A stretch of 64,000 nucleotides of DNA, from NCBI GenBank assembly GCA_018340375.1, contig JAFFJZ010000052.1, positions 806,001 to 870,000 of the forward strand, given 5' to 3'. Origin of the DNA: Gonatopus flavifemur. Taxonomy: Eukaryota > Arthropoda > Insecta > Hymenoptera > Dryinidae. Under the pieces are notes generated by a model that saw only the letters and a list, made by a program, of their open reading frames with translations, did not search any database and was not told where the DNA came from. The position numbers and the translations under genes are program-made. Positions 7,452 through 58,900 of the stretch are shown here, in pieces. Numbering within the stretch: position 1 is the stretch's first letter; each line of letters begins with the position of its first letter.

Positions 7452-7480
7452 TGTGTATCTATCTATCTGTCTGTCTGTCC
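7452..7480. repeat. TCTA/TCTG microsatellite
   Basis: A short run of tatctatctatctgtctgtctgtcc tetranucleotides lies just before the poly-T tract that opens the satellite-bearing repeat. Confidence 0.85.
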
Positions 7481-9130
7481 TTCCCCCGAGACCATTTTTT
7501 TTCTATTGCAATGGGACAAGTCCTTCTATTTCTTCTTAATTTTTTTCTGAACAAATAGGTGATCTCGGAGAAAATTTTCTCCGCTGTATACATATACATA
7601 TATCTCATTTCCTCCGCAGTCTTTGAATATTCGTTATCTTGGCTGAATTATTATGAAACATGGGTCCTAGGGGTTTTCGAGGGTGCTGAATCCGAATCTG
7701 GAGTCAAATCCCGAATTCAAGATGGCGGATCCAAGATTGCCGAAGTGAATTTAGTCAATTTTGCATTTGTGGACGGATTTATATGTAACACATGGGTTCT
7801 AGGGGTTTCGAAGGGTGAGGAATTCGAATCTAACGTCGAAAAACGAATGCAAGATGACGGACGTGAATTTAGTCAATTTCGCATGCGTGGAGAGATTTAT
7901 ATGGAACATGGGTCCTGGGGACTTCCGAGGGTGAGAAATTCGGATCTGACGTCGAAAAATGAATTTAAGATGGCGGATTCAAGATGGCGAACGTGAATTT
8001 AGTCGTTTTGGCATTTATGGACGGATTCCCATAAAATATGGGTTGTAGGGGTTTTCGAGGATGCTGAGTTCGAATTTGGGGTCAAATCCGGAATTCAAGA
8101 TAGCGAATACGAGATGGCCGACGTGAATTTAGTGAATTTTGCATTTGTGGACAGATTTATATGAAACATGGGTTCTAGGGGTTTTAAAGGGTGAGGAATT
8201 CGAATCTGACGTTGAAAAACGAATTCCAGATGGCGAGCGTGAATTTAGTCAATTTCGCATGCGTGGATAGATTTATATGAAATATGGGTTCTAAGGGTTT
8301 TCAAGGGTGCTGAATTCGAATCTGACGTCGAATCCCGAATTCAAGATAGCGGATTTATGATGACGAACGTGGATTCAGTCCTTTCGGCATTTATGGACGG
8401 ATTCCTATGAAACATGGGTTCTAGGAGTTTCCGAAGGTGCTGAATTTGGATCTGGGGTCAAATCCCGAATTCATGATCGCGCATCCAACGTGGCGGTCGT
8501 GAATTGAGTCATCTTGGCATTCATGGACAGATTTATATGAAACGTGGGTCCTAGGGGATTTCGAGGGTGCTGAATTCGAATCTGGGGTCAAATCCCGAAT
8601 TCATGATCGCGCATTCAACGTGGCGGTCGTGAATTGAGTCATCTTGGCATTCATGGACAGATTTATATGAAACGTGGGTCCTGGGGGTTCTGATGGGTAA
8701 GGAATTCAAATCTGACGTCGAGAAACGAATTCAAGATGATGGATCCAAGATGGCGGTCATGAATTGAGTCATCTTGGCATGTATGGACGGATTTTTATGG
8801 AACATGGGTTCTAGCGGGTTCAAAGGGTGCTGAATTCGAATCTGGGGTCGAATCCCGAATTTATGATGGCGGATCCAACATGGCGGACATGAATTCAGTC
8901 AACTTCGCATTTGAGGACAGATTTATATGAAACATGGGTCCTATGGGTTTTGGAGGGTGAGGAATCCAAATCTGACGTCAAAAAACGAATTCAAGATGGC
9001 AAATCCAATATCGCACACGTGAACATAGTGATTCTGGCTCTAATGAACAAAATCATATTGTTATATGTAACACGGGTTCTACGGATCTCCCAGGGTGCTG
9101 AATCAAATCCTGGGCTGCAATGTCGGAAGA
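7481..9130 (+). repeat. Satellite-bearing repeat, about 130-bp units
   Basis: After a head shared with 2095-2298, about eleven tandem units follow. The landmark gatttatatgaaacatgggt (with variants) recurs near 7773, 7890, 8020, 8151, 8266, 8396, 8525, 8655, 8785 and 8917, giving steps of 115-117 or 129-132 bases. The short steps lack about 15 bases around the aagatggcgga phrase. Each unit also carries gaattcgaatctg and gaatttagtca. The long open frame at 7559-7996 is a by-product of the repeats, not a gene. Confidence 0.88.
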
Positions 9131-10414
9131 AAATAAGAATTCCGATCTTCCCGTGTGAGCTCTACTGCATCCGCAGACTGTCCAAGAGCTGTCTGACGTT
9201 ATGACAACCACGCACTAGTGAGAACCTAAAAGTGAAGGAAGTAGCTATTGGAACAAATGGAGCCTGAAAATATTCCGATTCATTCCTAAGTTACGCCCAA
9301 ATAACTCTTCGTTACGCTTATCACGTTCAAATGCCTCTTAGCTTACGCTTTTGTCGTGCTTCCAGGCTTCATCTCTCTCAGGACAGTTGAAATTCTGCAG
9401 TTCTCCAGGGACATACACTACCGCCCAATGAAGTTCGGACAACTCTCACGAAAACTTGAAATTTTTGGAGTTGAATATCTCGGTAAGTATTCATCGTAGA
9501 GGGGGGAACCAAAAACCAGCTTGAAGAGCAAACTCTGCCCTTCAAAATGTATATCCACATTTTTCTCATATCTCCATTTTCTTATCAAAAAAATTCACTC
9601 GAAAAGATGATGATTATCGAATTTTTTTTCAATTCCCAAACTCAGGTTTTTTGTTGGGCGATCAGTGCACAAAACAGTGATCTTGATCGTTGGATAGAAC
9701 ATGGATTTAGCTTCAAAATGATTCTTGGTTTTTGTTGCTACGATTTTTTGGTCCCGAGTTCTGCCATTTTTTTGTGAAAAAAGTGACTCTTTCGAAAAAG
9801 TGGTATAACTCCGAAACTATTGACTACACAGAAAATTGTTCGGGAAGAAAAAGTTTCGTTCCAATGTTTTCTACATGTCAGAATTCTTCTAGAATTTTTG
9901 GGATCACTTTCATTTCCATCACTTTTTCGGCCGCTTCAAGGGAAGTTTCGAGCGATATTAAATATATCACCACTCAACGAAGTTCGAACACTTGTTCAAA
10001 ATTTATTGAAATATCATCCATTGTAGTATGATCCCGTAATATATTCATTGATCACTTTGTACTGATATTTTGGTTTATCGATTGGTCTTTTTCAAAGATG
10101 TCAAGATTCATAATATTCTCAAAGCTTTGATTTTACAGGATAATTATAATCATAACAAAAAGTGAGAAAGATTATGTTGGTTCATGAAAGTAAACAATAC
10201 CTCGCTTTCTCGAAGACGAAGGAGCAATAACATTTGCAAATCTAATTTGTCGTGTTAGAAAACACACACATTTACATTTTCCCTCATCACACATCAACAT
10301 TTTTGTTTACATTTTTCTCACTATTCGGATCATGAACAATCTTTCAGTTTCATATTTGGCCTACACTGATTAACTTGTTGAGAATATTTCTCTTTTGTCA
10401 AGTTCTGGTCAAAA

Positions 10415-11474: not shown

Positions 11475-12108
11475 AGTTAATGTTCTATTTCATATATTAT
11501 AAGAAATGTTTTGATGAAAGTTTAAATGTATTTTGTGTTTGTTAAAAAAATGAATAATGAGAGTAAACTAAAGTGCCGTGAGGAGTTGGAAAAATCTGTT
11601 TTCTGTGAAAAACTTGGATATCTGAACTTCATTGAGCGGTAGCGATTCAACGCCGGTCGAAACTTCCCTTGTAGCGGCCTAAAAAGTGGTGGGAATGAAA
11701 GTGCTTCCGAAAATTCTAGGAAAATTCTGACATGTAGTAAACATTGAAACGAAACGTTTTCTCCCTTAACAATTTTCAGTGTAGTCAACAGTTTCGGAGT
11801 TATACCACTTTTTCGAAAAAGTCACTTTTTTCACAAAAAATGGCATAACTCGGGACCAAAAAATCGTAGCAACAAAAACCAAAAATCATTTCAGAGCTAA
11901 ATCCATGTTCTATCCAACGATCAAGATCACTTTTTTGTGCACTGATCGCCCAACAAAAAACCTGAGTTTGAAAATTGAAAAAAAAATTCGATAATCATCA
12001 TCTTTTCAAGTGAATTTTTTTGATAGGAAAATGAAGATATAAGAAAAATGTGGATATACATTTTGAAGGGCAGACTTCGCCCTTCAAGCTGGTTTTTAGT
12101 TCTTCAAC

Positions 12109-16404: not shown

Positions 16405-17879
16405 AGAACCTGAGGAACCATAGATAACAGAAGAAATTCTCGATTTGATTAATAAAAGGAGGAAATGCAAGAATAAGAGTAGCGAACATGACCAGCAGAC
16501 ATACAAGGCACTGCACAGTGAATAGTGGAACTTAAAGTGATCCCGAATATCAACTCAAAAATGCAGCCAAAAGTAGCGCCTATTCCAACTGAAAGTAAGC
16601 AATGAAAAAGACTGAATTCCAGTCAATTCCATCTTACTTTGGAAATTAAGATGGAATTCTATCTTAATTCCAAAGTAAGATGGAATTGACTGGAATTCAG
16701 TCTTTTTCATTGCTTACTTTCAGTTGGAATAGGCGCTACTTTTGGCTGCATTTTTAAGCTGATATTCGGGATCACTTTAAGTTTCACTTTTTACTGTGTG
16801 AGGAATAAAATAATGAGAGAATCAAGGAAAGCAAAAGAACAATGGTTAGAGGAAAAATGTCAGGATATAGAAGCAAAATTACATTTAGGGAAAATAGATG
16901 ACAAAAATTATATACAGGAGAATAGAGAATAAAATAGAGAGTAGATTAGCGGAAGATCAGTTCGGTTTTAGGAAAAATAGGGGAACGCGGAAAGCAATAT
17001 TAACACTCAGAACAGTAGTAGAGAAAAGTCTAGAGTTGAAAAAGTCTGTGTATGTAGGTTTTGTAGATATACAAAAAGCATTCGATAATGTTGATTGGGA
17101 GAAGATGTTCACGATTTTGAAAAAGGTAGGAATTAATTTCAAGGATAGTAGAATAATATATGAATTATATAATAATCAAACCGCAATAATAGAAATAGAG
17201 GGCCAAAAAGGAGAAGCACTAATTGAAAGAGGGGTGAGACAAGGATGCTCACTATCGCCATTGATTTTCAATTTGGATGTAGAAGAAGCGACGAACGAAG
17301 TGAAGGAGCAATTGCAATTGAAATTACAGATTCAAGGTGGGAATGTAAGCATGCTGAGATTTTCGGATGACATGGCTATATGAGCTACGAGTGGTGCTGA
17401 GCTAGGAAATACTCTCAATACGATAAAAACAATATCACTAGAGAACTATTGTATGAATGTAAATGAGGACAAAACAAAATTCATGATTTGTGCAACAGCG
17501 AGTATCAAGGAGAATGAAAATCAAAATAGATGCAGAGACAATTCAGCAAGTGAAAGAATTTCAATATCTAGGAAGCATAATTACAGAAGACGATGAAAGC
17601 GAGAGAGATATAAGAACAAGAATAGCACAAGGAAAACAGGCCTTCCACCAAAAGAAACAGTTGCTGTGTTCTAGGAATATTAGCTTAGCAGTAAGGAAGA
17701 AATTCTTGAAGAGTCACGTTTGGAGCACAGCATTATATGGTCGCGAAACTTGGACAATTGGAAAAACAGACCAACGAAGACTCGGAGCTTTTGAAATGTG
17801 GTCTTACAGAAGGATGCTTAGAATAAAGTGGATAGAGAAAGTAAAAAATGAAGAAGTAATTGAGGAGGTAAATGTTTAA
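16405..17879 (+). pseudogene. LINE (non-LTR retrotransposon) reverse transcriptase remains
   Basis: Reverse transcriptase of a non-LTR retrotransposon, which copies its RNA at the insertion site. A leading segment at 16405-16513 and its continuation after 16800 (ESRKAKEQWLEEKC) are separated by a hairpin MITE. The core reads EDQFGFRKNRGT, then VDIQKAFDNVDW (first catalytic Asp), RGVRQGCSLSPL and FSDDMAI (near 17363, with Ser in place of the usual Ala). A stop follows at 17381. The C-terminal part resumes at 17490-17879 with the typical EFQYLGS, RIAQGKQAFHQKK and LYGRETWT motifs. No endonuclease domain is present. The clade was not resolved. Confidence 0.9.
16514..16798. mobile_element. Near-perfect hairpin MITE inside the LINE
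   Basis: Arms of about 130 bases (cacagtgaatagtggaactt... and its reverse) are almost identical and meet at a short centre near 16650. It splits the LINE coding sequence, which gives relative age: LINE first, MITE later. Confidence 0.88.
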
Positions 17880-40457: not shown

Positions 40458-41431
40458 ACGCCAGGATCAAGCATGTGATGATTAGATTAATGAAAAACAA
40501 AAATCCGAACATTCCACTCAATACTCATTCACTCTTCCCACATCAAAATTCAGATTTCACAAGAAATTTCATGAACTTCATTTGAAATGAATGCTATCTT
40601 CCCACGTGGAACAAAAAAAAATTCACAAAATACACCAATGAAAGTACCGTACTGAATCTCGTCTCACCTGGTTGTTCCGCACATTTCGTCTTGTTTGTTG
40701 TCCCTCACCCGACAATCAGGTGTTTGTCTTTTTTCACCCCTTCTTGTCAACCGGTGTCGAGCGACCGGTAAAATATTCACGTATGAAAATTGAAGAGCAA
40801 GCACACAAAACTGTATCGTCCTTGAAGCTCGAACTGCGAGTACGCACTTGACCAGCGCGCGTCGTCAACTGAAGTAAAACCGCAGGAGTACAAGTTAAGT
40901 GGCCCCACGAAGCGCGTCGACAATCGTCGAGCCTGACCGAAGTTGTGCTTTCGAACCGCTGGTTCATCATTCACCGTATATCCTTTCGAGACGTTTCGTA
41001 GTTGGTCCTGCTCGAAAGGATCTCTTTCTCTCACGTGCTGAATTTCATGATATCATAACTTTGTATAAACTTTGGAACTGGGACATTGAACTGTTAAAAA
41101 TTCTAGTAGTCCCTTCAACGCAAGATCATTCAAGTTGATCTGAAGAATCGAAGGATTTCAATTACAAAAAACAGAGCTCTCAATCAATGCAAATAAATGA
41201 CAATCGGGGAATGGAGGATGAGTGAACGACATATGCACCACTGCAGACATTGATTATGTTATACTTGAAGACTAATCGCACCAATGGAGCATTGAGCTGC
41301 TGGTGATGTGATGGCATACGGGGGATGATATATTTATTCAATCATGTGTGGTGTTCTTTCCCAAACAAAATAAACATGTACGGAGGGTACCAATGGATTA
41401 TTACAGTACATAGCTACGCGATGTGCCAATT
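40458..41431. other. No gene; includes a CpG-rich island (about 40730-41035)
   Basis: Within AT-rich surroundings, about 40730-41035 is rich in CG dinucleotides (gcgcgcgtcgtc, cgaagcgcgtcgacaatcgtcgagc). The open frames on both strands there (40777-41034 minus, 40899-41138 plus) are explained by base composition. A promoter or 5' exon of an unseen gene is possible. Confidence 0.35.
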
Positions 41432-42828
41432 GAGAGTTTCCATGCAATAACCACTTGGGCACTCGAGAAGGAGTAAAAGCGGTTGCGTCGAGGGTCGGAG
41501 AAAAGTCGGAATTTCGGAAATCTAAAAATACTGGGTGATAGGGCTTTAAAATTGAATATCAGTAGCTGCATACCACTTTTTTCTGGGATCGATAGTTTTC
41601 TGGAAAAAAATGAAGACTTCCTTATTTTTTCGCACCAAAAGTCAATGTTTTTGAACATTAAACTCGTTTCCATTTGGCCATTTTTCGATGTATCGAAATA
41701 ACCCTTGTGGATTTGGATTCGTGCGACTTCCTCGGAGACAACAATGCCGTGAAAGTTTGTGAAAATCAATAACGAATGCATAAATTCTTAATTCGGAGTC
41801 AAAATCACCTCTCTCATGCTGTACATCAAAGAAGTGGGAGAGGGAGTATGAGCTACAAAAAACTTCCAGCGACAAAGTTGTTCGCTAGGGTGTGGACAAA
41901 CGTTTTGAGAAGTTGCAGATCGATTGGACTGTTTTTCCGCAAAATACAGCGATTTCTTGATCCGCGCGCAACAAAAATTCTTCCTGATTTTGCGAATTTT
42001 TGATGAATGAGACTCATGTTTTTTGGGTCGGACAATTTAAATATCGAACTATTTTTGCAAGATCCATTTGTGATTTCTTTCAGATAAGCAATTATCCGAA
42101 TGGACGGTATGAACAATCGAAGTTTTTATTTGAAAGAAATTACTAACGGCCCTTGTGAAATTAGTTCGATATTCGAACTCTCCAAGCCAAAAAACTTAAA
42201 CCATGTTGGGAATATTGAGTGAATACAATTCTTCCCACAACCCCTGATATTCAGCCGCTAAACGTTTCAAAATCATGAGGAATTTTTGTTGCGCGCGGAT
42301 CAAGAAATCGCTGTATTTTGCGGAAAAACAGTCCAATCGATTTGCAACTTCCCAAAACGTTTGCCCACACCCTAGCGAACAACTTTGTCGCTGGAAGTTT
42401 TTCGTAGCTCATACTCCCTCTCCCACTTCTTTGATGCAAAGCATGAGAGAGGTGATTTTCACTCCGAATGAAGAATTTATGCATTCGTTATTGATTTTCA
42501 CAAACTTTGGCAGCATTGTTATCTCCGAGGAAGTCGCACGAATCCAAATCCACAAGGTTTATTTCGATACATCGAAAAATGGCCAAATGGGAACGAGTTT
42601 AATGGTCAAAAACATTGATTTTTGGTGCGAAAAAATAAGGAAGTCTTCATTTTTTTCCAGAAAACTATCGATCCCAGGAAAAAATGGTATGCAGCTACTG
42701 ATATTCAATTTTAAAGCCCTATCACCCAGTATTTTTAGATTTTCGGAATTCCGACTTTTCTTCGACCCTCGACATAACCGCTTCTCCCGATTCCCGAGTG
42801 CCCAAGTGGTTATTGCATGGGGACCCTC
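41432..42828. mobile_element. 1.4-kb palindromic relative of element 2, AATT duplication
   Basis: Left gagagtttccatgcaataacc, right (reversed) gagggtccccatgcaataacc. AATT lies outside each end (41428-41431, 42829-42832). The arms of about 650 bases run 41432-42085 and 42130-42828 with almost no spacer. Internal phrases (ctgggtgata, aacttccagc.acaaagttgttcg, cagcgatttctt.at..gcgcgcaac) match the terminal repeats of element 2 at 48158, so this is a two-arm deletion derivative without a gene. Confidence 0.88.
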
Positions 42829-45800
42829 AATTGAGGATATTCAATTCTTGTTCAAGTGATGTTCAATTACAGTGTCACACAGACGATTTCATCACTTTTG
42901 ACATCCTTCAATTAAAATACGAGCTGTTGGATGTCGGATGAAAAGTGAGATTCGCGAATGTGACAATACTTCTGAGTATGAGGTTATGTCATTTGATATT
43001 GTATATGCAGACGAAAGGGATTGAGTGAGAGTTTCAAGGTTCGTGTCAAGGTTCACTCTGCATTCAAGATTAAAATGATTCACGATAACTCTGGTTTCCA
43101 TTATGAAATACTTGTTCATGCTATCCTCTGTGGAAAAACCCCGCATGGAGAAAATTTTGTAGTAAAAATTATTATATTCATATCGTAGGCGTGGGATATA
43201 CTTTATTGTGATGGAAAGAACCATGAGTACACTGAGAGAGATAAGAGAGAGAAATTACAGCTCAAGTAGCAACCGAACGTTGTATATGTACTATGAATGT
43301 TCATAGTATATCTAGATATACTATGAACGTGCATAGTATATATGCAACATTCTGATGCTACTAGGGAGTATATATTGTAACTTATGGCTCAATACAAACT
43401 TTTTTGCAAATACAGCAGAGAAATTCATAATTCTTCATATCATAGAATGTAATAATGAGATTGTAGTATATAGTATGAAAAATTATATTTTTTTCGGAAT
43501 ATATCACCGATAAAATTCTTCACTTCTAATAATCAGTTTCATATTTAAAGATTGAGAGTAACAACGATAATATTAGACATTCAGAAGTGTGAATATTGCG
43601 TTATGAACACGATAATATGAATTGCGTATGTTCGTCCTGCAACTTTTAAATATTTTCTATCGATGCTAAGTACTCGTTAGCAATTACGTTTTCGTGGTGT
43701 ATTGTGTTCAACTTTGTAGGTAAGTTCTACAGTGTTTACTGGTTACCGACTGATTCCAATGCAGCCTTGTTAGAGTTACATTTTTTGGTCGTTAACGGCT
43801 GTTTGAAAACATCAACGCTTGCACATAGAAAAAACGAACAGCTTTCAACGTTTCAAGCATTCATCATGTTATCTCAAAAACATGTATAAGATGTCCAAAA
43901 CTCAAAAATTAGAGAATTTTGTTCATATCTCTCACAGAACATAATGAACGTTTGAAATGTTAAGGGGAGGAATATTTACTGGGCACTACACAAGGTGGTT
44001 GGAAATTTCGGACTGTACTCCACGTGCATAATCTTCAGGAGAAGAATGAAAAAATTTTTCTTTGAGCATAATGTTGTGATGAGCAGAATTTTTGAGTTAT
44101 GAACGGAATAAGGTGATCATTCATGTAGCGAGTACGTCGGCTTCTTCAATGATCGAACATTATACTTATGTAGTGGTTACTTGATTAACCATACAGCAGA
44201 AATTTTGCTTCATCTAAAAGATTCCTACTGGATGTGTGAAAGATGTAACAGCTTAGACTGGCGCTGAGATGTCTCCGTTTAAGGAATCTGGAAGAGAGAT
44301 CTGAAGATCTTCTAGATTTCTTGAATTGAGGCATCTTAAAGGTAGTGAAAACTGTTGCATGAAACATTCTTTAAACATACAGTAGAAATTTTTTAGACAA
44401 AGCAAAATTTTTTCTGTGAAGGTAACTCAAGTCAGCTCTAAGACTGAGCATTTCACAAGATTTTATTCCAATAAAAGAAACTCCAAAATAGTAAAAGAAT
44501 AACGCCAAGCACATGAAAATGATCAATATCTACAAAAACAAATCTATAAACCTATTCTCAACAGAAATTTCATTACATTCAAAAATTCGATGCGATACAA
44601 CAGGATATGTACCATCTGAAAAAAAAGATGCGAAATCAATAAGAGCTGCCGAATACATTTGGTTATCCAAGTGGTATGTAAACGATGCTTTGTTTATTGT
44701 AACTCAAACTGTTTTCAATTCTATTCGAAGTGATTCATGATCTTTGAAACACATCATTGTATTCAAAATGAGCATAAAGTGGATTGGAAGAAAAATTAGG
44801 TTCAATCATTAGGCATACAAGAAACACCTCTGACTTATTCTGACCCAAACGTGTTGGTCGTACATTAATGGATTCCTGTCGATTTTCTGCACCATTTTGT
44901 CACAGCTACTATAAGATTTCTATTGGATTTTATGAAAAATTCAACATTATTGGTTTTTATATTATGAAAAAAATACACTGATGAACAAAAAGTTTTCATC
45001 AGAAAACCATGTCGTTCTGTTGAAGCATTTACGGGAATCTATTGGAATATATTGGGCTTTTTCAATGATATTTCTTTTGTTTGTTGATAAGGATTTCTCT
45101 CAAAAAAGTTTCTCTCACCTTCTCACTTTTGTAGAACATCTTTGTTTCTTCTTTGATGTTTCTTCCCTTTTCCTTACCTTTTTCTGAAACATAGAAAAAA
45201 AAGTATGGAAATTTCACAAGCTCGAGGAAATGGATAACTGAGTATACACTGTTAGGAATTTCTTGAAATTCCATGTACTTTTCATGTACATATGTGAATG
45301 AAAATTCAATTTTTGTAAACTGAAATAGGAATCCAAATACATGTTATTGAGTTTTCGAGTTATTGTGCATAAAAATTGAAATTAATGTACAGGTGATTGA
45401 AAAAACTTGGAAAAATTTAATCCATTATAATAACATAATAATATCATTTTGATATCATTATAATTGTAATCAAATCAGAGCTGTACTGGTATCCAACTGA
45501 AAATAACCAAAGTGATCCAAGTTGATTTGCATTTGAAAAAAAATCTGAAAATGCTCATATCTCAAGAACTAATCTTCAAAAAACCGGAAATTCTTGCATT
45601 ATGGCCGCAGAATACGCCCTTGAAATACAATTTTTCTCACTTGGGTCACCCTGTATACTAACGCTTTGACGAAGTCATCCACGTATCCACTTCAACTATG
45701 TATTAATTAGATCACACGATTTGTTCAGTGTTTCTACATCATAAGTACATCTTGATTCACAAATTTGAAGAATGAACGCAAGGTGATATAGGCAGAAAAA

Positions 45801-46921: not shown

Positions 46922-49900
46922 ATGCCAATTTCATTTGTCATTCTGATCTCAATCTGTATCATCTGGTCTTCTCATCGTTATAGTGATTGATGAAAATTCA
47001 ATTAATTGAATAATTTATTTTTGTTTCTTTGAACGGTATATATCGATAGGAATGGGTGAACGCGTGGTTCCAACATTTGCATCGAGCGAGATGTCACGAC
47101 AGATTACTCCAGGAGATAATACGTTGTAAATATTTATTTTCATTATAGTTTTTAATTTTAATATTTAATTCACCTCCCAATCTGATGTAAATTTCATACA
47201 CTTTGGAAAACGTATTGAAAAAATTCCAATCTCTATATGATTTGTGCTTTTATATATGTTTTTGCAGACAAATCACCGGATATGTCGATTCAGTTTTGGG
47301 ACGAAACATAGTTGGTAGAAAAAGATCATTGACTCTTTTCAAGTTTATTATTAAGAACAATGATTGATGCAGACTCACAGTTTTGCTATGGGAAGACAAA
47401 ATTGCTATGTATGAACAGCAAATAAAAATGAATGAGGTACATGATATATATGTATATATGATGTATGAGACATATCATCCCAGATAACATTTTGGAGCTC
47501 CCTCTTAGATTCACGAACAGAAGCCTATCCATGTGCGTTGTTTTGTGAGCGCACAAGTGGATTGCGTGCAAATCCATGTTAATGTGCATCCAGTCCTGTT
47601 ATTTATGAATTTTAATTTCAAGTGAGAGGATTTGAATTTTTCATATTGCTAAAAGTGAGGTAGTTTTTCTTTTGTGCATGAAATTCCAAGTCTTTGAAAT
47701 CCATGGGGATCTATCACTTTCATCAATAAATATCTTGTTCGTCCATTGGACGAATTATAATTTCCTTTAATTTTCAATTCGGATTAGATTATCAAGTTTT
47801 TTTACGCGAAAGCTACACCCGTTGACGCTGAATACGTCAGAGAAGCAGAAGGATTTCTACCTTATGAACTTTCAGTCCAGAAAAGACCTACTTTGACTTT
47901 TCATGGTCCCTTCAATCTTCAGCACTCACCAATAGTGAAGACTTTGAATATTTCAATCCAATACGCCGCAGCTTACGAAGGTCCAGTCGGTAAATAATGC
48001 CGCACTTCAAATATATCTACATGGAAATAACTTCACACTTCCATTTTCCTGAGATTTTATTAAAACAACTGAGGTAATCATATTCCATTCTCTCTCTCAG
48101 TTGTTGAAGGCTACGTAAGCGTGGAATTTTTACGAATGTCAACTGGCAGCGGTAATTGAGGGTCCGGATGCAAGAACCGACGATACGCTCGAACTGCGGG
48201 ATAAGTATTGTCCAAGCCGTGACGTCAGGGGTCGAAAAAAAAATCGGGATCCCAAAAATCTGATAATACTGGGTGATATGGCTTGGAAAATTGATACAAG
48301 TCTTCCTTTACAATTTTTTCCTATGATCAATAGTTTTTGAGAAAAAAAATGAAAACTACCTATTTTTTGCAACCAAAATCAATGTTTTTCAATATTAAAC
48401 TCGTCATAACTTGGTCGTTTTTTTATGTATCTAAGTGAATCTCACGGATTCTGATTCGTAAGACTTCCCCGATGACGAAAATGTTGAACAAATTTGTAAT
48501 GTTTTAATCCGAAGTGGAAAGCATGTTTTCCATGCTTTGGAATCAAAAAGTGGTGGGAGAAATGAGAGTTACAAAAAACTTCCAGGCACAAAGTTGTTCG
48601 TTAGTATATGGATAAACTTTTTGGAAAGTTTTAGATCGATCGGATTATTAGTGTGCAAAATCCAGCGATTTCTTCATGAGCGCGCAACGGTGATTTTGCA
48701 TGCCTTTACGACGTGTACCCGCTCAACATCGACATCTGTGAGAAAGATTGTGTTTGTTTGATTTCCCAACGTAGATTTATATTTTTGGGTCAGAGAATTC
48801 AAATATCGAACTATGGTATTCTTGTCGTATGCGGTCTACGTAGGTCCTTGGATTGTCGTATGCGGTCCACCGGGGTAGACCGCATGCTGCAGTGCATACG
48901 GTTGCTGTATGCGGTCTACCCCGGTAGACCGCAAGCTGCTTACTATATGCTTCTTGTATGGGGTCTATCCTGAGCAGAGTGCATACGATAAGGGTAAGGA
49001 TTGTATTATGCGGTCTACCCCGGTGGGTGGGAAACGATTTCGATAAACTGCAGCATGCGTAATGGAAAGCAGTTCGAGTGCAGGTAAAAATGCAGAGAAA
49101 TAACAGTCTGGTACTTATGTGGAAACACCGGAACTTGCTGAAATTTGAGTGGAGCAGGAGAATGAGAGGAATAGTGAAAAGAAAATGTTCCACAGAAATG
49201 AAAATAAATGAAAGAGAAAGAGAGAAAGAATAACGTTATGTACGACCTGAATGGCAGCACATTGTACATTAAAGTGTTGGTACAAGAAGTACCTGGAATC
49301 CCACGACGTTATGAATGAAACAGTAAATATGTAGGAAACGTACGCGCGTGTATTCAATGAATTTTCGACAACTACGTGTATGTGCGTACGTGTACGTGTG
49401 AAGAATTTTCATCACAAACCGTTGAATGAAGTTAGAGTCAGGTATCAGTTCGGTTGTGAATTATAGCAGTCGTGTTTGGAATACGTGTCCAGTAGCCGAT
49501 GAAATGTGTCCAGTAGTTTTCATTCCAGTTCCTGCAGTTCGTTTTCTGTACTACTTGCCTGCTCCTTTTCCTATGCTTTGCCGCTTTCTCACGGTAAACC
49601 CCATACAACAGTCGTTACGGAAGCACCTTGCGGTCTGCCCAGGTAGACCCCATACTTCAACCGTCACCGTTGTCGTATGCACTCTACTTAGGGTAGACCT
49701 CATACAAGGAGCATATGGTAAGCACCTTGCGGTCTACCGCATACGACAAGAATACCCGAATTATTTTTGCAAGCCTCCTCACCAATTCGTTTTTTATAAA
49801 TAATTTTATTGCAAAAAACTCACACACTAATGTGAAGAAAAATATTTATATAAAGTATTTTTATCCTTTTTTACATAATTCACCTTCATATATCATAAAA

Positions 49901-52900
49901 GATACTATTTTTTTGTCACATAATAGTTCCGCGTGTTACAGAATAATCAGAGTTATCAATCATAAAGTCAATTGTACTCAATACTGAGCATTTTACCTCA
50001 TATCACAGTTTTCGATAATGCAAGTACTCATCGAATTCGTGGACTGTATTTCCTCTCGTTTCACTTTTTGGTGTTTTTACTTCTCACACTCATTTCTGTC
50101 ATGTATTTTTCAGAATATTCTTTCCCTTTAGGAGTTCAAAACTTCAGCGAAGCCTTCAAATCTTTTATTTTTCCCGCACTTATTCCTATTCGTTCGGCGG
50201 GTGGAGCATTTCTTGAATCATCATATATAACTGACTTGTCGATAAAATACGTCTTTGGAGTGCCCTCATGATTTCCATAAACATCAACATTACCGTTTGG
50301 ATAATACTCAATTATCACGGCTTTTGTAACCTTCAGGTCTTTTTCACGTACAGGAATTTTATGTCTACCCTGCATCACAGATTTAGAATCTTTCACGAGA
50401 CAGTTCTCTCGTTCCACTATAATAAAAGGCGGACTTCTTGCATTCCTGATTAATTCAATGTACTCTTCCTCAGTTCCAATAGTTTCTACCATTTTTTTCT
50501 TCTGACCGTACACTACCGGTCAAAAGTATTCGAGCACCTCTCGAGAAAACACGAAATTTTCGAAGTTTCATATCTCAGCCGGAAATTATCGTACATCCAA
50601 AAATAAAAAACCATTTTGAAGGGTGAAGTGTGCTCTTTCAAGAAACCTTAGTCTCACTCACCTGACTGGAGTTCGTTATTAACCGCGTTCGGTTGAACTC
50701 ACAACTTTTTTCGATTCTTTTTCAACTTTTCAAACCTTTGCATGTTTTTGGGTGATTCTTTCCTGGGAAAATGAGATCATACATTCAATAGAGCATGAAT
50801 TCAGCTTCAAAATGATCTCCCATTCTTTCCCCTCGGATCATTCCTTCCAGAGTTATGTCCTTTTTTGTGAAAAAAGTTGATTTTCAGACAAAGTGCTGTA
50901 ACTCTGAAAGTATCGTTCCAGTCAAAAACTGTTAAGGGGAAAAAAGTTTCGTTCCAACGTTCTCCACATGCATAAAAATTTTGAGAATTATTGAGGCATA
51001 TTTGATTTTCGCCACTTTTCTCATCCTTGGTGGAATATCTTGCAGTCTCGAGATCATCAATCAATTCAAATATTCAACAAAGAATAATCTTTGGATGAGT
51101 CTACAGTGGTGAACATTTTTTTTCTTCGTTGTACATCCATGTTATAATTATGTTTTGTTGGGGACTCCATAGTGACGTGAATTTTGTGGTCAGAATGCCA
51201 GTGACTGTGAATATGAAATCCCGGAAATTTCAAGATAAACCGTGTAGGAATTATGACAGTCGAGCATGCTTATCATAAAATTGGAAAATCAAATTGTTCT
51301 TATTCAAATTATATTTCCAAATCAAAATATGTACATATGTATACAATCAACATTCAAATTCAAAATCAATTCAAATCAATTCAAATTCCGATTTCAAATT
51401 GCAGATTCTTCGAAATAGCCACCTCTTGCTTTTACCACCGCCTTGCAGACTCCCGGCATCCTCGATAATAATTTCTCCGATGTCATAGGAGATATCTGAC
51501 TTCAACATGTTTGCAAATATTGCCATAGTTCCTGGTTGTTCGTTGGTCTCATTTTCCTCACATCTCTATCGAGTTGATCCCACAACAGTTCTATGGGATT
51601 GAGCAGGCCGGTCCATAATCTGCAACTAATGCGCGTCTTCCTTCTTCCGTATGTATCTCGAGCACAATTTCGAAGTATGCTTGGGATCGTTATCCTGTTG
51701 CAGAATAAACCCGTTTCCAATTAACCTCTTTCCAGAAGGTATAAGGTGGTTTTTTAAGATACTATGATATCCCTCTTTCTTTAAAATACCTTCAATTTTG
51801 AATGAATCACCTACTTTTAGTCCTCCAAAACACCCCCATATCATGATTGATCCTCCCCCGTGTTTCACCGTGGGTGTTACACATTGATTAAGCATTCGTT
51901 CACCTTTCATTCGACGGACGTAGACTCGACGTTTCGTTCCAAATAATTCAAATTTTGATTCGTCCGTAAATAGTACTCTCGACCACTCTCCTATGCCCCA
52001 ACTTGAATGTGCGCGAGCCCAATTCAAACGTTTAATTTTGTTTTGCTTACGTAATAAAGGTTTTCGCGCAGCAATACGTCCCATGAGGCCAGAATCTCGC
52101 AGACGACGTTGAACGGTTGAGACAGACAAAGGGGAATCACGAGTTGCATTCAGTTCTTGTTGTAAGTCAGGTTCTGTTCTCATCCCTAGTCGTTTACTTT
52201 GAATACGCAAAAACTTATCTTCTTCTTTCGAAGTAACTCGCGACCTGCCAGATCGAGCCCGATTGGAATTCGATTTTGTACTTAGGTACCGCTCCAGGGT
52301 ATACAATACGGTCGAATTAGTTACACCGACTCTCTTCGAAATTTCTCTCAAAGAATATCCCTCTTCGCATAATGCCACTATCACAGCACGTGTTTCTTGA
52401 CTTGTTTCGCGGGTTTTAGGCATAACTGATAACCCGTAGAATTATAATTGGATAAAACAGTCGCATTATAGGAGGCTAGTCTGTATTTATCACGATTAAC
52501 GCATTGTTTTGCATGAAGCAGTTGCATATGAAATTTATCATTTGTTTGTTTCGATAAATGAATATCGATAGTTTTTTACGATGAATGCATCGTTTTGCAT
52601 GGACAAAAAAATTTCACCACTGTAGACTGATCTGACGATTATTCTTTGTTGAATATTTGAATTGATTGATGATCTCGAGACTGCAAGGTGTTCCACCAAA
52701 GATGAGAAAAGTGGCGGAAATTAAATGTGCCTCAATAATTCCCAAAATTCTTATGCATGTGGAGAACGTTGGAACGAAACTTTTTTCCACTTAACAGTTT
52801 TTGACTGGAACGATACTTTCAGAGTTACAGCACTTTGTCTGGAAATCCACTTTTTTCACAAAAAAGGACATGACTCTGGAAGGAATGATCCGAGGGAGAA

Positions 52901-55900
52901 GAATGAGAGATCATTTCGAAGCTGAATCCATGCTCTATTGAATGTATGATCTCATTTTCCCAGGAAAAAATCACCCAAAAACATGCAAAGGTTTGAAAAG
53001 TCGGAAAAAAAATCGAGAAAAGTTGTAAGTTCAACCGAACGCGGTTAATAACGAACTCTAGTCAGGTGAGTGAGACTAAGATTTCTTGAAAGAGCACACT
53101 TCACCCTTCAAAACGGTTTTTTATTTTCGAATGTACGATAATTTCCGGCTGAGATATGAAACTTTGAAAATTTCGTGTCTTCTCGAGGGGTGCTCGAATA
53201 CTTTTGACCGGTAGTGTACATGCTGAAATTCCTATCACACTAACAATATGAGTGTCCCTCAGCGGGAAACAAATGATGAATGGGAACTTGATATTTCTGT
53301 GACAAGAGTGATGAGAACACCATCACTGTATGATTCTCATTTTGTCCGCCGCATGAATCAGAGAACAGAAATATTTTATTGTAACAATGCAACTCGCATG
53401 ATTCCAAAATAACATGCAGTAGGAAATTGCACACCGTGTTTCTGCCTTTTTTTGAGGATCCTTCCATGAAAAAAAAACATTGAGCTTGGTGATACACTAC
53501 CAGTAGGGACATGAACGTGAACGTTGAATATATGAAGCCAAATCAACCGCAAATCAAACTGAGCCGAAACCGGAAGTTTCGGTAATGGAAGATTCTGTCC
53601 GAAATCGAATTCGAGGCATAAGTTTTCTCCACAAGTTGCTAACATTGTGTCCTTCAAAGTTTTATGTGCTCGAATTTTTCGTTTGTGCTCTTTCGCAGCT
53701 GGTTCATTTTGCTTCTCGAGTTTCTCATTCGCATAACATTCGTCGCAACAATCCGTTCTGGGAACATCGAATGTGAAATTTACAAAATGATTCAAATATT
53801 TAGAATACGTAGATTCTGTTAGTGGAACGTCATCATTTCCAGTTTCGGATTTGTAGTGATCAAGGAATTTTTCATATAAACCCGTTGAACTCAAATTACT
53901 ATCACGAAGATCATTAAATTCCCAAGTCGTATAATGCGATTTTGAATGAGAAAGACTTTGGCAGTGCTGAAGAATAAGCCTTTTCAGATCATTGGTTAAT
54001 GTTGTAAAATGATCAAAAGTTTTCCCACGCATATCCTGAAGGCCTTCATCATTTTTCAGTTTATTTTGGACCGTTAATAATCGAGCTCTTTTGATACCAA
54101 TGACTGCGAGTAAAAAACTTTGACAAATTTCGAATTCACCATGAGCTTGAAACAGATGAGGAAAATAGTGATCCCATCGTACATATTTTACTGAGTCACT
54201 ACCAGCAGCAGACTCTGTCTGCTTCATCAGTGTGCTTGAAAAAAACATTTTGTGACGCATAATCCCCAAGTTTCCAAAAAGTATCGTGCACTTTTTTGTG
54301 GTGCCAGCTCTCAATTTTCGAGAAGCATTTTCTCCCACAGCGAAGGACGATATCCCGAAATTCTCTCGCAGGCACGGTTTTCCCCGTTGTTGAAGATTTG
54401 TATCCTTTCCCCTACAGAATTCAAAAGCAACAGTATAAATCTATCAAAACATCCATACAGCACTAATGTCTCACAGAATATCACAGAAATATTCTGGAAA
54501 TATTGAAACGTCTCAGTATCCATAAGCACACCAGTTCAGAAAGAGTTTGTAACAAATTCATTTGGAACTATGAAAATCCAAAATGCACGCATTGAAAACT
54601 TTTTCTGAACTTCAGTGCTATGTCGGTAATACCTCAAAAATATTACAGAGACATTCTGAAGACGAGGAGGCTTCATATACTGAAAAATATACCTTTCTGA
54701 AATGGGATCAACAGAAAATCCGTTATCCCAACAAGATTCTTGTTTTCTCAACTAAACCTTCGGTATTGAAAATAAAGATGATTCCTGGAATAGAAGGTCA
54801 ACCAAATTCTTTTGTTCGAACCTCAAAAGTCTTGCTGGGATAACAACATTATTTTCCTGATGACATTCCGGAAACATTATTTTGTTGTTTTATACAAAAC
54901 ATTTTTCCAAGTGTAGTGCACCTAATGCAACAAACACAACAAATCACATGTCTTTTGTACAGAGAATTTCTTGTAGCTGCATTCACTGAATGAGTATCGT
55001 TATATTGTAGTATGACATTGTAGTTATTTCAAGTAAATATCTACACGGCACATGTTCCAAATGAACTCCCGTTATGTTCGTTCCGAAAGAATTCGTAATG
55101 AATTCTCGAGAATTCTCAAAAAATTCTTTTTGAATACCAGAGATTCATAAAGCGGTTATTCTAATTTATCATAACAGAGACTTCTGAAGAATCTCACAAT
55201 GGATTCATAAAGGATTCTCCACCACCACATCAAGGCAAGCGTTCTGTGTCGGCATTGATGAAACTCGTATAGGCAGCTACTTTTAAATGTTAGCACAATC
55301 CAATGTCTAATCTAGTTGGACATGATGTGGTCTGTTTAATAGGCCGCATAATGCGTTGGATTTTTCCTGGGAAGTATCAGACTACCCAATGTCTAATCTA
55401 GTTAAATGTATGTTTTGCAGATTTGATTGGAATTCACACTGTCGACATGAGGCATTAAAAACAGGACTTCAATACCAAAATATTAAGTAGGGGGTATTTT
55501 GATTATCACGTTTCATTTGGGGTTCAAAATTTTTAATCAAATACATACTTGGTTTCGAGATTGTTTTGCGATATCACGTTTCCATGAACTTTCATTCCTT
55601 GTTCTTGTTCGGCCTTTTTGTGATTTTTTCGCACTTCGCATTTTCTCATCACACATATTTATACGGTGATGAATGATGAATTATCAATTACTTCAGAAAC
55701 ATTATAAAGAAAAAGCAACACTACAAATTCTTCCTTGTTCATGAATGTTCATGCACGTTGAGAGATGAATATCATGAATGCTGAGTTTTGATGCCAAGTG
55801 ATCAAAACGAAAGAGAATAGAACAACCACGAAGATGGCTGGAGATTGATATAATAAATGAAAAACGTTCGCCAACGCGCCACTTTCAAAAATAGGATAGA

Positions 55901-58900
55901 TAGTATTTCATCAGTGGCAGTTTTCATCAAGAATTAATTCATTAGATTTTCAATTATAATTTGTGTATATATACACGCAACATGGATTTCTGAATTATCA
56001 ATTCGCCTAAAAGATTCATGAAAAAAGAAAACAATGAAATTTAAGTTTATCAACATGAATCGCAAAATCGTATGAAAAGAGAAAAGTATCTGATTTCAAA
56101 TTTTGAATCTCAAAAAAACCTCCGATCTTGCTAATTCCACGTAATCAATATATTTTTCAGTACTCCTCCGTCTCACTTACAAGCAGATACCCATGGTTTT
56201 CCTTCACTGAAATAATTTTATTGCTCGCACTAGACGATCTGACGTCGTTGATAATTCAGTTTTTGGATCTCATTAGAATTGTTCGATTTTCCAATTCCTC
56301 AATCTAAAGAATCTCAATCTATGTGAAGAAACCAAATTATGAGAATTATTTTTATCTCTATTTAAATATCATAATTATATTTAAATAAAAAATTCGGATA
56401 CTGAAAAATGATATGTACAAAATTGATCAGTTACAGGATAAGAAATCTTTTTTGTTCCAATACTTTTTTCATTATATCAATATTTTGTATATGTCATTGT
56501 TTTGAACCAATCGATGGTTTATTATAAACTTGAATGAGCAACCTTGCCAAAATAGTTTGATTCCCGGATATAAAACTTCTTCCTCACAAGGATGAAAAAC
56601 TTCATTAATTGGGACAATTTTTCTTCAAAGTCAATAGTTTGACCATAAAAACGTTATAAACAATGGAATTGTTGATAAAAAAAAAGAGAATTCCAAATCT
56701 AGCAAATATAGTTCGATATTCGAATCTTATGACTCAAAAAACATAAATCCACATTGGAAAATCGAACGAATACAATTTTCCCTGCGGACTCTGATATTTA
56801 ACCGGTACGGAATGCAAAATAACCGTTGCGCGCTCATGAAGAAATCGCTGGATTTTGCACACTAATAATCCGATCGATCTAAAACTTTCCAAAAAGTTTA
56901 TCCATATACTAACGAACAACTTTGTGCCTGGAAGTTTTTTGTAACTCTCATTTCTCCCACCACTTTTCGATTCCAAAGCATGGAAAACATGCTTTCCACT
57001 TCGGATTAAAACATAAATTTGTTATAAATTTTTACAAATTTGTTCAACATTTTCGTCATCGGGGAAGTCTTACGAATCAGAATCCGTGAGATTCACTCAG
57101 ATACATAAAAAAACGACCAAGTTATGACGAGTTTAATATTGAAAAACATTGATTTTGGTTGCAAAAAATAGGTAGTTTTCATTTTTCTTCTCAAAAACTA
57201 TTGATCATAGGAAAAAATTGTAAAGGAAGACTTGTATCAATTTTCCAAGCCATATCACCCAGTATTATCAGATTTTTGGGATCCCGATTTTTTTTTTCGA
57301 CCCCTGACGTCACGGCTTGGACAATACTTATCCCGCAGTTTGAGCGTATCGTCGGTTCTTGCATCCGGACCCTCAATTGTAGTTTTTCCAGCGGTGCCAT
57401 CACCGATGAAACGTATCAACTCCGAGTTCAGATTTCAAACCACAGAGACGTCTCTTTTTTGAAATGAGTGCACATGTAAGGGCCAATGGGAATATGAAGA
57501 AAGATAAATGTAGGTTTGAAATTTTTTCAATCTCATATTGAGAAAAATATTTTGAATTCAAACTTGTGGTATGGTTGGATATGGCGAAATTCAAGACGAG
57601 ATTGCGTCAGTTTCATATAAAAAAAGAAAAAATATATATAATCGATCTAACCACACTGCCCAAGTGGCATCGGGATATACTACAGGTTGGTTGAAAAGTT
57701 TCTGCGCTCGAAATGGAAGAATACTGTTTTTTTTACGAAATATATTTTTTTATTCAATATAATCTCCTAGAAGCTCAATACACTTGTTCCAATGATCTTC
57801 CAATAATTTTATCCCACCTTTATAATGGTTTTCCCGTAAGCTCTGCAAAATAACCGTCTACGGCTGTTATGGCCTCTTCATTCGACGAAAAATGCTCTCC
57901 ACGAAGGAATTGTTTGAGATTTCTGAAGAGATAGTAGTCGCTAGGAGCCAAATCTGGCGAATACGGTGGATGTTCAAGCAATTCGTACTTGAATTCTTTG
58001 AATTTAGCCATCGTCAAAACACTTTTGTGAGCAGGTGCATTATCTTGATGAAAAATGATTCTTTTCTTCTTTAAACTAGGTCTTTTCTCACGAATTTTTT
58101 CATCCAGCTGATCCAAAAGGCTGCAGTAATATTCGGAGTTGATTGTTCTACGTTTCTGAAGATAATCAATGAACAAAATTCCTTTTGCATCTCAAAAAAC
58201 TGATGCCATAACCTTCTTTGCTGATCGTTGTGACTTCACCTGCTTTGGAGCTGAACAACCAGCTTCGGTCCACTGTAAACGTTCTTGTTTCAATTTAGGA
58301 TCATGGTGGTAGATCCGAGTCTCATCCATAGTTATGAAACGACGCAAGAAGTCGGTTTTATTCTGCTTAAAACGCTCCAAATTACGCTGAGAAATTTGTT
58401 TTCGATCCAGTTTTTGTTGAATTGTTAACGTGTGCGGCACTAACTTTCCAAACAGTTTTTCCATACGTAATTCTTCATGTAAAATATGGAGTACTCGTTC
58501 GTCTGAGATGCCTATGGCATTAGCAATTTCACGCTTAGTCAAACTTGGATCTCCACTAACCATATAATGTACATGCTCAATGATTCCTGCTGTGGTTGCA
58601 GTTTTTGGTCGTCCTTCGCGTGGATCGTTTCCAAGGCTAGTACGACCACGTTTAAATTCACCAGCCCAAAATTCAACGGTGCGTTTTGAAGATGAGGACT
58701 CCTTATACACTTCTAACAATTGTTCATAAATTTCCTTTGCTTTTAAATCCTTCAAAACGAAGAATCTAATGACTGCACGATATTCAATTTTCTCCATATT
58801 AAGAAAAATCAATGACACGTCAACTTCATATGGCTTGTAAACAAAGAACGAATTGTTAGAATGACTTGTAACTTTGCATGTGTTTCCAGGACAGATATAC

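Follow-up and report, generated by a model that had tools for sequence, protein, structure and literature searches.

The window analysed here is a stretch of 64,000 nt from contig JAFFJZ010000052.1 of Gonatopus flavifemur, and all coordinates given below are positions within it. Between 48158 and 57374 it holds a degraded cut-and-paste DNA transposon of 9.2 kb (nested insertions included), with DUF7869 very probably the catalytic part of its transposase. The ends reported in the first-pass annotation, GAGGGTCCGGATGCAAG, are exact at 48158 on the forward strand and at 57374 on the reverse strand, and the AATT target duplication is indeed read on either side (48154-48157 and 57375-57378). The terminal inverted repeats (TIRs) announced there are also present, but alignment places them at 48158-48814 (plus strand) and 56708-57374 (minus strand), that is, at a length of about 660 bp rather than the claimed 690 or so. 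The left and right TIRs are 91% identical over 677 aligned columns, and no match to them was found among phages.

Two insertions are nested in the element. A foreign insertion of 942 bp (48815-49756) with inverted ends GGTATTCTTGTCGTATGCGG sits directly inside the left TIR; it is flanked by CGAACTAT and CGAATTAT, and is missing in the relative L071. The other is a Tc1-like element (50511-53216; TIRs 94% identical), which lies within the DUF7869 gene between TA duplications at 50509-50510 and 53217-53218. It carries a transposase reading frame of its own on the minus strand (51626-52441), recognized by a profile match to HTH_Tnp_Tc3_2; its own TIRs and TA duplication rule this gene out as the enzyme of the surrounding element.

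The DUF7869 gene is on the minus strand. Its second exon is split by the Tc1-like element into a 5' part (53219-54411), laid out from reading frames and genome relatives and comprising three frames and an in-frame stop, and a 3' part (50136-50508), which encodes the C-terminal part and includes the stop codon. The SDSCGGQN motif is encoded at 53339-53362 on the minus strand, as had been noticed. Judged by conservation, three Asp codons stand out: 53604-53606 (in EFDFGQN), 53357-53359 (in SDSCGGQN) and 53234-53236 (in CDRNF), the last being adjoined by the in-frame stop. The 100-aa frame containing SDSCGGQN scores 23.3 bits (E 5.4e-5) against the DUF7869 profile, below the Pfam cut-off of 26. 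Since the coding blocks are in different frames, an in-frame stop is present and the Tc1-like element interrupts it, the gene is not intact; and because that element has its own transposase frame, the description of DUF7869 as the single gene holds only once the nested element is discounted. A putative first exon (55549-55656), encoding a basic N-terminus (TRTRNESSWKRDIAKQSRNQ), and a putative intron (54412-55548; GTATGT ... TGTAG) can be proposed from frames, splice-site letters and the first exons of L116 and L119, which are similar; neither figured in the earlier account.

A shorter element of 1397 bp at 41432-42828, 84% self-complementary over its whole length, had been described as a derivative with the same ends and the same AATT. 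AATT is indeed read on both sides (41428-41431 and 42829-42832), but the ends, GAGAGTTTCCATGCAAT and GAGGGTCCCCATGCAAT, are merely similar. Its arms are only 70-72% alike to the TIR of the 9.2-kb element, which rules out a deletion product of the same family; by alignment it belongs to a related family, in which it represents a gene-less copy.

The 17-bp end was counted in the genome with up to two mismatches allowed, using the reversed 17-mer as a control. Its abundance exceeds chance, because 483 occurrences (259+224) were found as against 12 (6+6) for the control. Twenty copies were read with both ends paired, and every one of them (20/20) is flanked by a perfect 4-bp duplication. The first-pass annotation had expected AATT at each copy, which is the case for 15 of the 20; the other five carry a different 4-mer, albeit always a duplicated one, so that strict AATT specificity is ruled out. 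AWWT describes 18 of the 20, the remaining two being GATT and AGTT, and TTAA is duplicated in none (0/20). When the 20 pairs, the loci repeating them and the window were left out, the flanks of 19 further ends in other fetched loci read AATT (12), ATAT (3), AAAT (2), CATT (1) and AAGT (1); the three ATAT flanks belong to weak matches in L115 and L118 that are unlike element ends.

Unoccupied targets, which had been suggested as a check, were found elsewhere for two insertions. One lies within the window, where a LINE-like sequence at 17700-17815 (minus strand) matches the target site of the window-family copy L081 at 90% across the junction, with a single AATT. The 20 paired-end copies have the exact ends, and no DUF7869 match was obtained in 17 of them. 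A DUF7869 gene is found in only three, that of L070 being part of a nested element from a different family, and most copies would therefore need an enzyme supplied in trans.

Genome searches for the gene itself revealed stops in 25 of the 33 window-family rows. The proposal that the gene belongs between such ends stood in part: at 20 of the 29 window-like loci TIR sequence lies within 1.5 kb of the gene, but some loci lack it. Wider reading of four of the nine loci without a near TIR uncovered a one-sided TIR at two and none at the other two; we read loci without TIRs nearby as decayed copies. Three further DUF7869 families were identified, each with its own diverged TIRs. In all four of their fully read copies (L116, L117, L118 and L119; 4.4-5.8 kb, TIRs of about 870-960 bp), the gene is enclosed by the copy's own TIRs, the main exon is free of stops and AATT is duplicated on both sides, 4 bp in 4/4. 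The DUF7869 gene is the sole frame of at least 100 aa in L116 and L117, whose proteins are 98% identical. Of the five proteins taken into the profile scan, those of L116 (44.3 bits), L071 (39.5), L118 (36.9) and L119 (35.2) exceed the gathering score of 26, unlike the window piece scored above.

Structure prediction, likewise proposed at the outset, bore out the expectation of an RNase H fold: the predicted core is closest to the mariner transposases Mos1 and SETMAR, with 8-10% identity over the core, and contains three near-invariant Asp, including those of SDSCGGQN and EFDFGQN. These residues (D300, D379 and D420 in P0003, with spacings of 79 and 41) are placed in the model as a putative DDD triad. 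With Foldseek alone, no match reached E ≤ 0.001; the best was Mos1 at 2.0e-3, and the list also includes UvrC, Argonaute and endonuclease V, which are likewise RNase H-like. A common fold does not prove function. A search of solved structures by sequence returned one match, which at E 0.98 is not useful. Scanning viral, bacterial and archaeal contigs with conserved-peptide patterns yielded no relative, the 57 pattern matches in viral contigs being taken as chance and not used. The DUF7869 family is seen in many insects, and the named relatives among the matches listed come from insects and one mollusc, under the names uncharacterised, hypothetical, unnamed or DUF7869 domain-containing. No amoebozoan protein, through which DUF7869 might have been linked to the published dictyostelid Sola2, is named among the best 120 of 160 matches; as the list stops there and most entries are unnamed, this is weak evidence.

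That DUF7869 is the transposase of these elements, as the first-pass annotation had argued, is a conclusion in which we place high confidence. It is very probable because the gene is kept between diverged TIRs and is accompanied by a predicted RNase H core, a DDD triad and consistent duplications; TIRs, duplications, the two unoccupied sites, residue conservation and the four copies in three other families, in which the gene is the main or only content, are directly observed. A passenger or accessory role for DUF7869 would require a true transposase that is encoded elsewhere and acts in trans. The 17 paired-end copies without a DUF7869 match must indeed have been moved in trans by something, yet the retention of the gene between its own TIRs in diverged families, its standing as the sole sizeable frame in L116 and L117, and the predicted catalytic core make a passenger role very improbable. 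The chance that the enzyme is the pogo-like DDE_1 protein of L068 is negligible: this protein does lie between the same 17-bp ends in two of the 20 copies (L068 profile-scanned, L082 by likeness), but in both it belongs to a nested insertion that has ends and a TA duplication of its own. The two insertion places differ, and L066 displays both of them without a pogo-like element. These junctions rule it out.

With DUF7869 as the transposase, we infer both the cleavage chemistry and movement in trans. The protein would bind the long inverted repeats and, by means of the three Asp in its RNase H-fold active site, cut at the 5'-GA ends. Once released, these ends would be joined with a 4-bp stagger to an AT-rich target of 4 bp (generally AWWT, with a preference for AATT), and repair would create the duplication. 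Gene-less copies, which retain the ends, would depend for their movement on the enzyme that complete copies encode.

Sola is a known, little-studied class of transposons. The elements described here probably belong to this superfamily, group Sola2: published descriptions agree with the DDD enzyme, the duplication of 4 bp of AWWT, and the lengths of both elements and TIRs. The 4-bp duplication (20/20 paired-end copies and 4/4 copies of other families) and a DDD transposase with an RNase H fold, here deduced from conservation and the predicted fold, are shared with Sola2 as far as the available descriptions go. According to excerpts of the respective papers, Sola2-type elements have an AT-rich AWWT target (PMC3627910), which compares with the AWWT preference here (18/20), and Sola elements are mostly 2-9 kb with TIRs of 11-1124 bp (PMC10741241), a range that accommodates L116-L119. 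In contrast, the dictyostelid Sola2-type elements in the former excerpt have TIRs of only 12-13 and 21 bp, as against about 870-960 bp here (PMC3627910). Tc1/mariner elements such as Mos1 and SETMAR differ in their TA duplication, whereas ours have 4 bp of AATT/AWWT and TIRs several hundred bases long. Kolobok and piggyBac share the 4-bp duplication, but their target is TTAA in the portion of PMC9587614 available, unlike any paired-end copy here.

Alternatively, the 4-bp duplication and the DDD triad shared with Sola might have arisen convergently, and DUF7869 elements would then make up a separate superfamily of DNA transposons. The word DUF7869 was not found in the literature searched, the relatives listed have no functional name, and other superfamilies also give 4-bp duplications, such as the TTAA of Kolobok and piggyBac (PMC9587614, in part). 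Nevertheless, the length of the duplication, its AWWT bias, the DDD enzyme, the size of the elements and the range of their TIRs all fit Sola/Sola2 traits in the published excerpts, and Sola2 is reported among insect MITEs in the accessible part of PMC5199201, so that we consider a separate superfamily unlikely. Equally doubtful is its fuller version, a eukaryotic cut-and-paste superfamily distinct from Sola and defined by DDD, the AWWT 4-bp duplication, TIRs of ~1 kb and a cysteine-rich N-terminus, some of whose copies in this genome were active recently and may still be so.

The elements are probably new families within a known kind, and what they add is chiefly a functional role for a Pfam family that has no name. 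DUF7869 (PF25273), to which L116, L118, L119 and L071 belong by score, has no assigned function in Pfam, in contrast to the transposase role supported here. Such a role would flag uncharacterised and hypothetical gene-set entries as likely transposon genes and would supply a profile for masking. A direct test of such a transposase is possible because the genome holds nearly identical copies, L116 and L117, with stop-free main exons.

The element at 48158-57374 has the ends that the first-pass annotation gave it, an exact GAGGGTCCGGATGCAAG at 48158 and its inverted copy at 57374, each bordered on the outside by AATT, and the TIRs (48158-48814 and 56708-57374) are 91% identical over 677 aligned columns. 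The gene with the SDSCGGQN motif is indeed present between them, but it is broken by frame changes and an in-frame stop, and is interrupted by a nested Tc1-like element (50511-53216) that is flanked by TA and has TIRs 94% alike. Its remains lie on the minus strand, with a putative exon 1 at 55549-55656, then a putative 1137-bp intron bounded by GT and AG, and exon 2 running from 54411 down to 50136. The codons of all three conserved Asp residues survive, and the protein piece bearing SDSCGGQN matches DUF7869 at 23.3 bits, just below the Pfam cut-off of 26. Adjoining the left TIR is a foreign insertion of 942 bp (48815-49756), with inverted ends GGTATTCTTGTCGTATGCGG and flanks CGAACTAT and CGAATTAT (7 of 8 bases alike), which is missing from L071, a relative fetched like the other numbered loci from the same genome; by its appearance it is an independent element that carries no gene and is flanked by a duplication of 8 bp. 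Elsewhere in the window, 9694-9926 and 11682-11913 resemble the nested Tc1-like element's TIR (~70-72%) and are probably, from this likeness, further Tc1-like copies.

The 1.4-kb relative at 41432-42828 does exist and is bordered by AATT at either end. Its terminal sequences (GAGAGTTTCC and GAGGGTCCCC), however, proved similar to those of the window element rather than the same. With arms 70-72% like the window TIR and ends no more than similar, it belongs to a related family as a gene-less member; a direct deletion product of the window element's own family was rejected.

A search of the genome (636 Mb, 402 contigs) with the 17-bp end, allowing up to two mismatches, returned 259+224 matches, and the backwards pattern 6+6. 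From the first 100 places listed, all exact, we drew every pair of neighbouring plus and minus ends less than 10 kb apart, 20 pairs altogether, leaving out four wider ones. The flanking 4 bp are identical in 20 of 20 (AATT 15, AAAT 2, ATTT 1, GATT 1, AGTT 1; AWWT in 18), and the elements therefore make a 4-bp duplication with a strong preference for AATT. The earlier expectation of AATT at every copy thus holds for 15 and is refined rather than refuted by the other five, since each of these has another perfectly duplicated 4-mer. AATT also occurs at 12 of 19 further ends (up to three mismatches) in other loci already fetched, three of the 19 being weak matches unlike element ends, and two extra pairs (L060 and L101) have AATT on both sides. 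One window-family element (L072, 201-2643; 2443 bp), bordered by AATT on both sides, consists of one palindrome that is 98.5% self-complementary from end to end. In L071 a second TIR-like sequence (7475-7668) directly abuts the element, and through this contact the two share one AATT.

When the flanks of each of 27 elements were joined and matched against the available sequence, two clear unoccupied sites emerged. The site of L081 is empty both in L119 (89% across the junction) and in the window at 17700-17815 (90%), where AATT occurs once; this target sequence also lies next to L119, together with a LINE-type frame. The inner element of L070 (761-6266; AATT on both sides) is inserted in an arm of a window-family element, and its site is empty in L066 and L076, among others (94-99% across the junction in four alignments). 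Matches of L071 were excluded because of the abutting TIR-like sequence. The remaining elements had no unoccupied-site match, as expected for single-copy flanks. The stretch 17687-17835 of the window is related to DNA beside L119, with its LINE-type frames, and beside L081.

Which gene belongs to the ends had to be decided among several. DUF7869 genes occur in three of the 20 paired elements (L070, L071 and L078), that of L070 being part of the inner element with its own diverged ends GAACCCACGGGAAGAAG. Reading frames, listed for six of the longer pairs, included a pogo-like gene in L068 and L082, with a DDE_1 match for L068, the one of the two that was scanned. These pogo-like elements (L068 1170-4239; L082 1382-4544, approximate) lie inside gene-less AATT elements; they are nested insertions, since they have their own ends (GGGGAGAC) and TA on either side, and sit at different positions, both of which are unoccupied in L066. 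Two adjacent frames of L071 (4574-5664), which we take to be mariner-like, fall in a stretch missing from the window element and are probably another nested insertion.

In a six-frame genome search with the window protein, 83 of 1346 candidates were scored, so that the counts are lower bounds: at least 85 matches, with at least 33 at 65-86% identity (window family) and at least 52 at 43-46%. Stops interrupt 25 of the 33; the matched stretch has none in 32 of the 52. Four loci of the second kind were read widely: L116 (4387 bp) and L117 (4386 bp), which share the ends GAAGGCCTGGATTTAATAAC except for one base at one L116 end; L118 (5779 bp), with ends nearly those of the inner element of L070; and L119 (4719 bp), whose ends are GAGCGGCCGGATCTAACAAC, with a single differing base in one of them. 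In all four the element is flanked by AATT, its TIRs (~870-960 bp) are 97-99% identical, and its one DUF7869 gene has a main-exon frame that measures 549-553 aa between stops. No other frame of at least 100 aa is found in L116 and L117; the next-longest is 107 aa in L118 and 148 aa in L119. A basic first exon lies upstream in L116 and L119, and partially in L118 and L071. Between families the proteins are 47-55% and the TIRs 69-74% identical, so that gene and ends diverged together; the strongest evidence for DUF7869 as the transposase lies here. Beside the L117 element, a frame at 6884-7603 matches the solved DNA-mediated transposase 6pqn, presumably Transib (E 8.6e-36).

Not all copies of the gene have ends nearby. 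Among 29 window-family gene loci (L086-L114), 20 have TIR sequence within ~1.5 kb on either side. The window itself is one of the remaining nine. Wider reading of four more (L120-L123) showed a TIR on one side in two and none within the 8.5 kb read in the other two, which nevertheless retain internal parts of the element. We infer that gene loci lacking TIRs are decayed copies.

The element is thus confirmed, with the corrections given above, and the proposal that DUF7869 is a transposase is supported by genes lying between their own TIRs and AATT and diverging with them; we consider it very probable for these elements. Its value lies in giving a function to an unnamed domain. In published descriptions, Sola elements have a DDD transposase, a 4-bp duplication, a size of mostly 2-9 kb and TIRs of 11-1124 bp (PMC10741241), and Sola2-type elements have AT-rich AWWT duplications (PMC3627910); the elements described here share every one of these traits. 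Membership of Sola2, resting on shared traits rather than homology, is likely, and the elements are most likely new families of that group. The word DUF7869 occurs in no paper of the library searched. Among the matches listed, the named relatives come from insects and one mollusc, and are called uncharacterised, hypothetical, unnamed or DUF7869 domain-containing.
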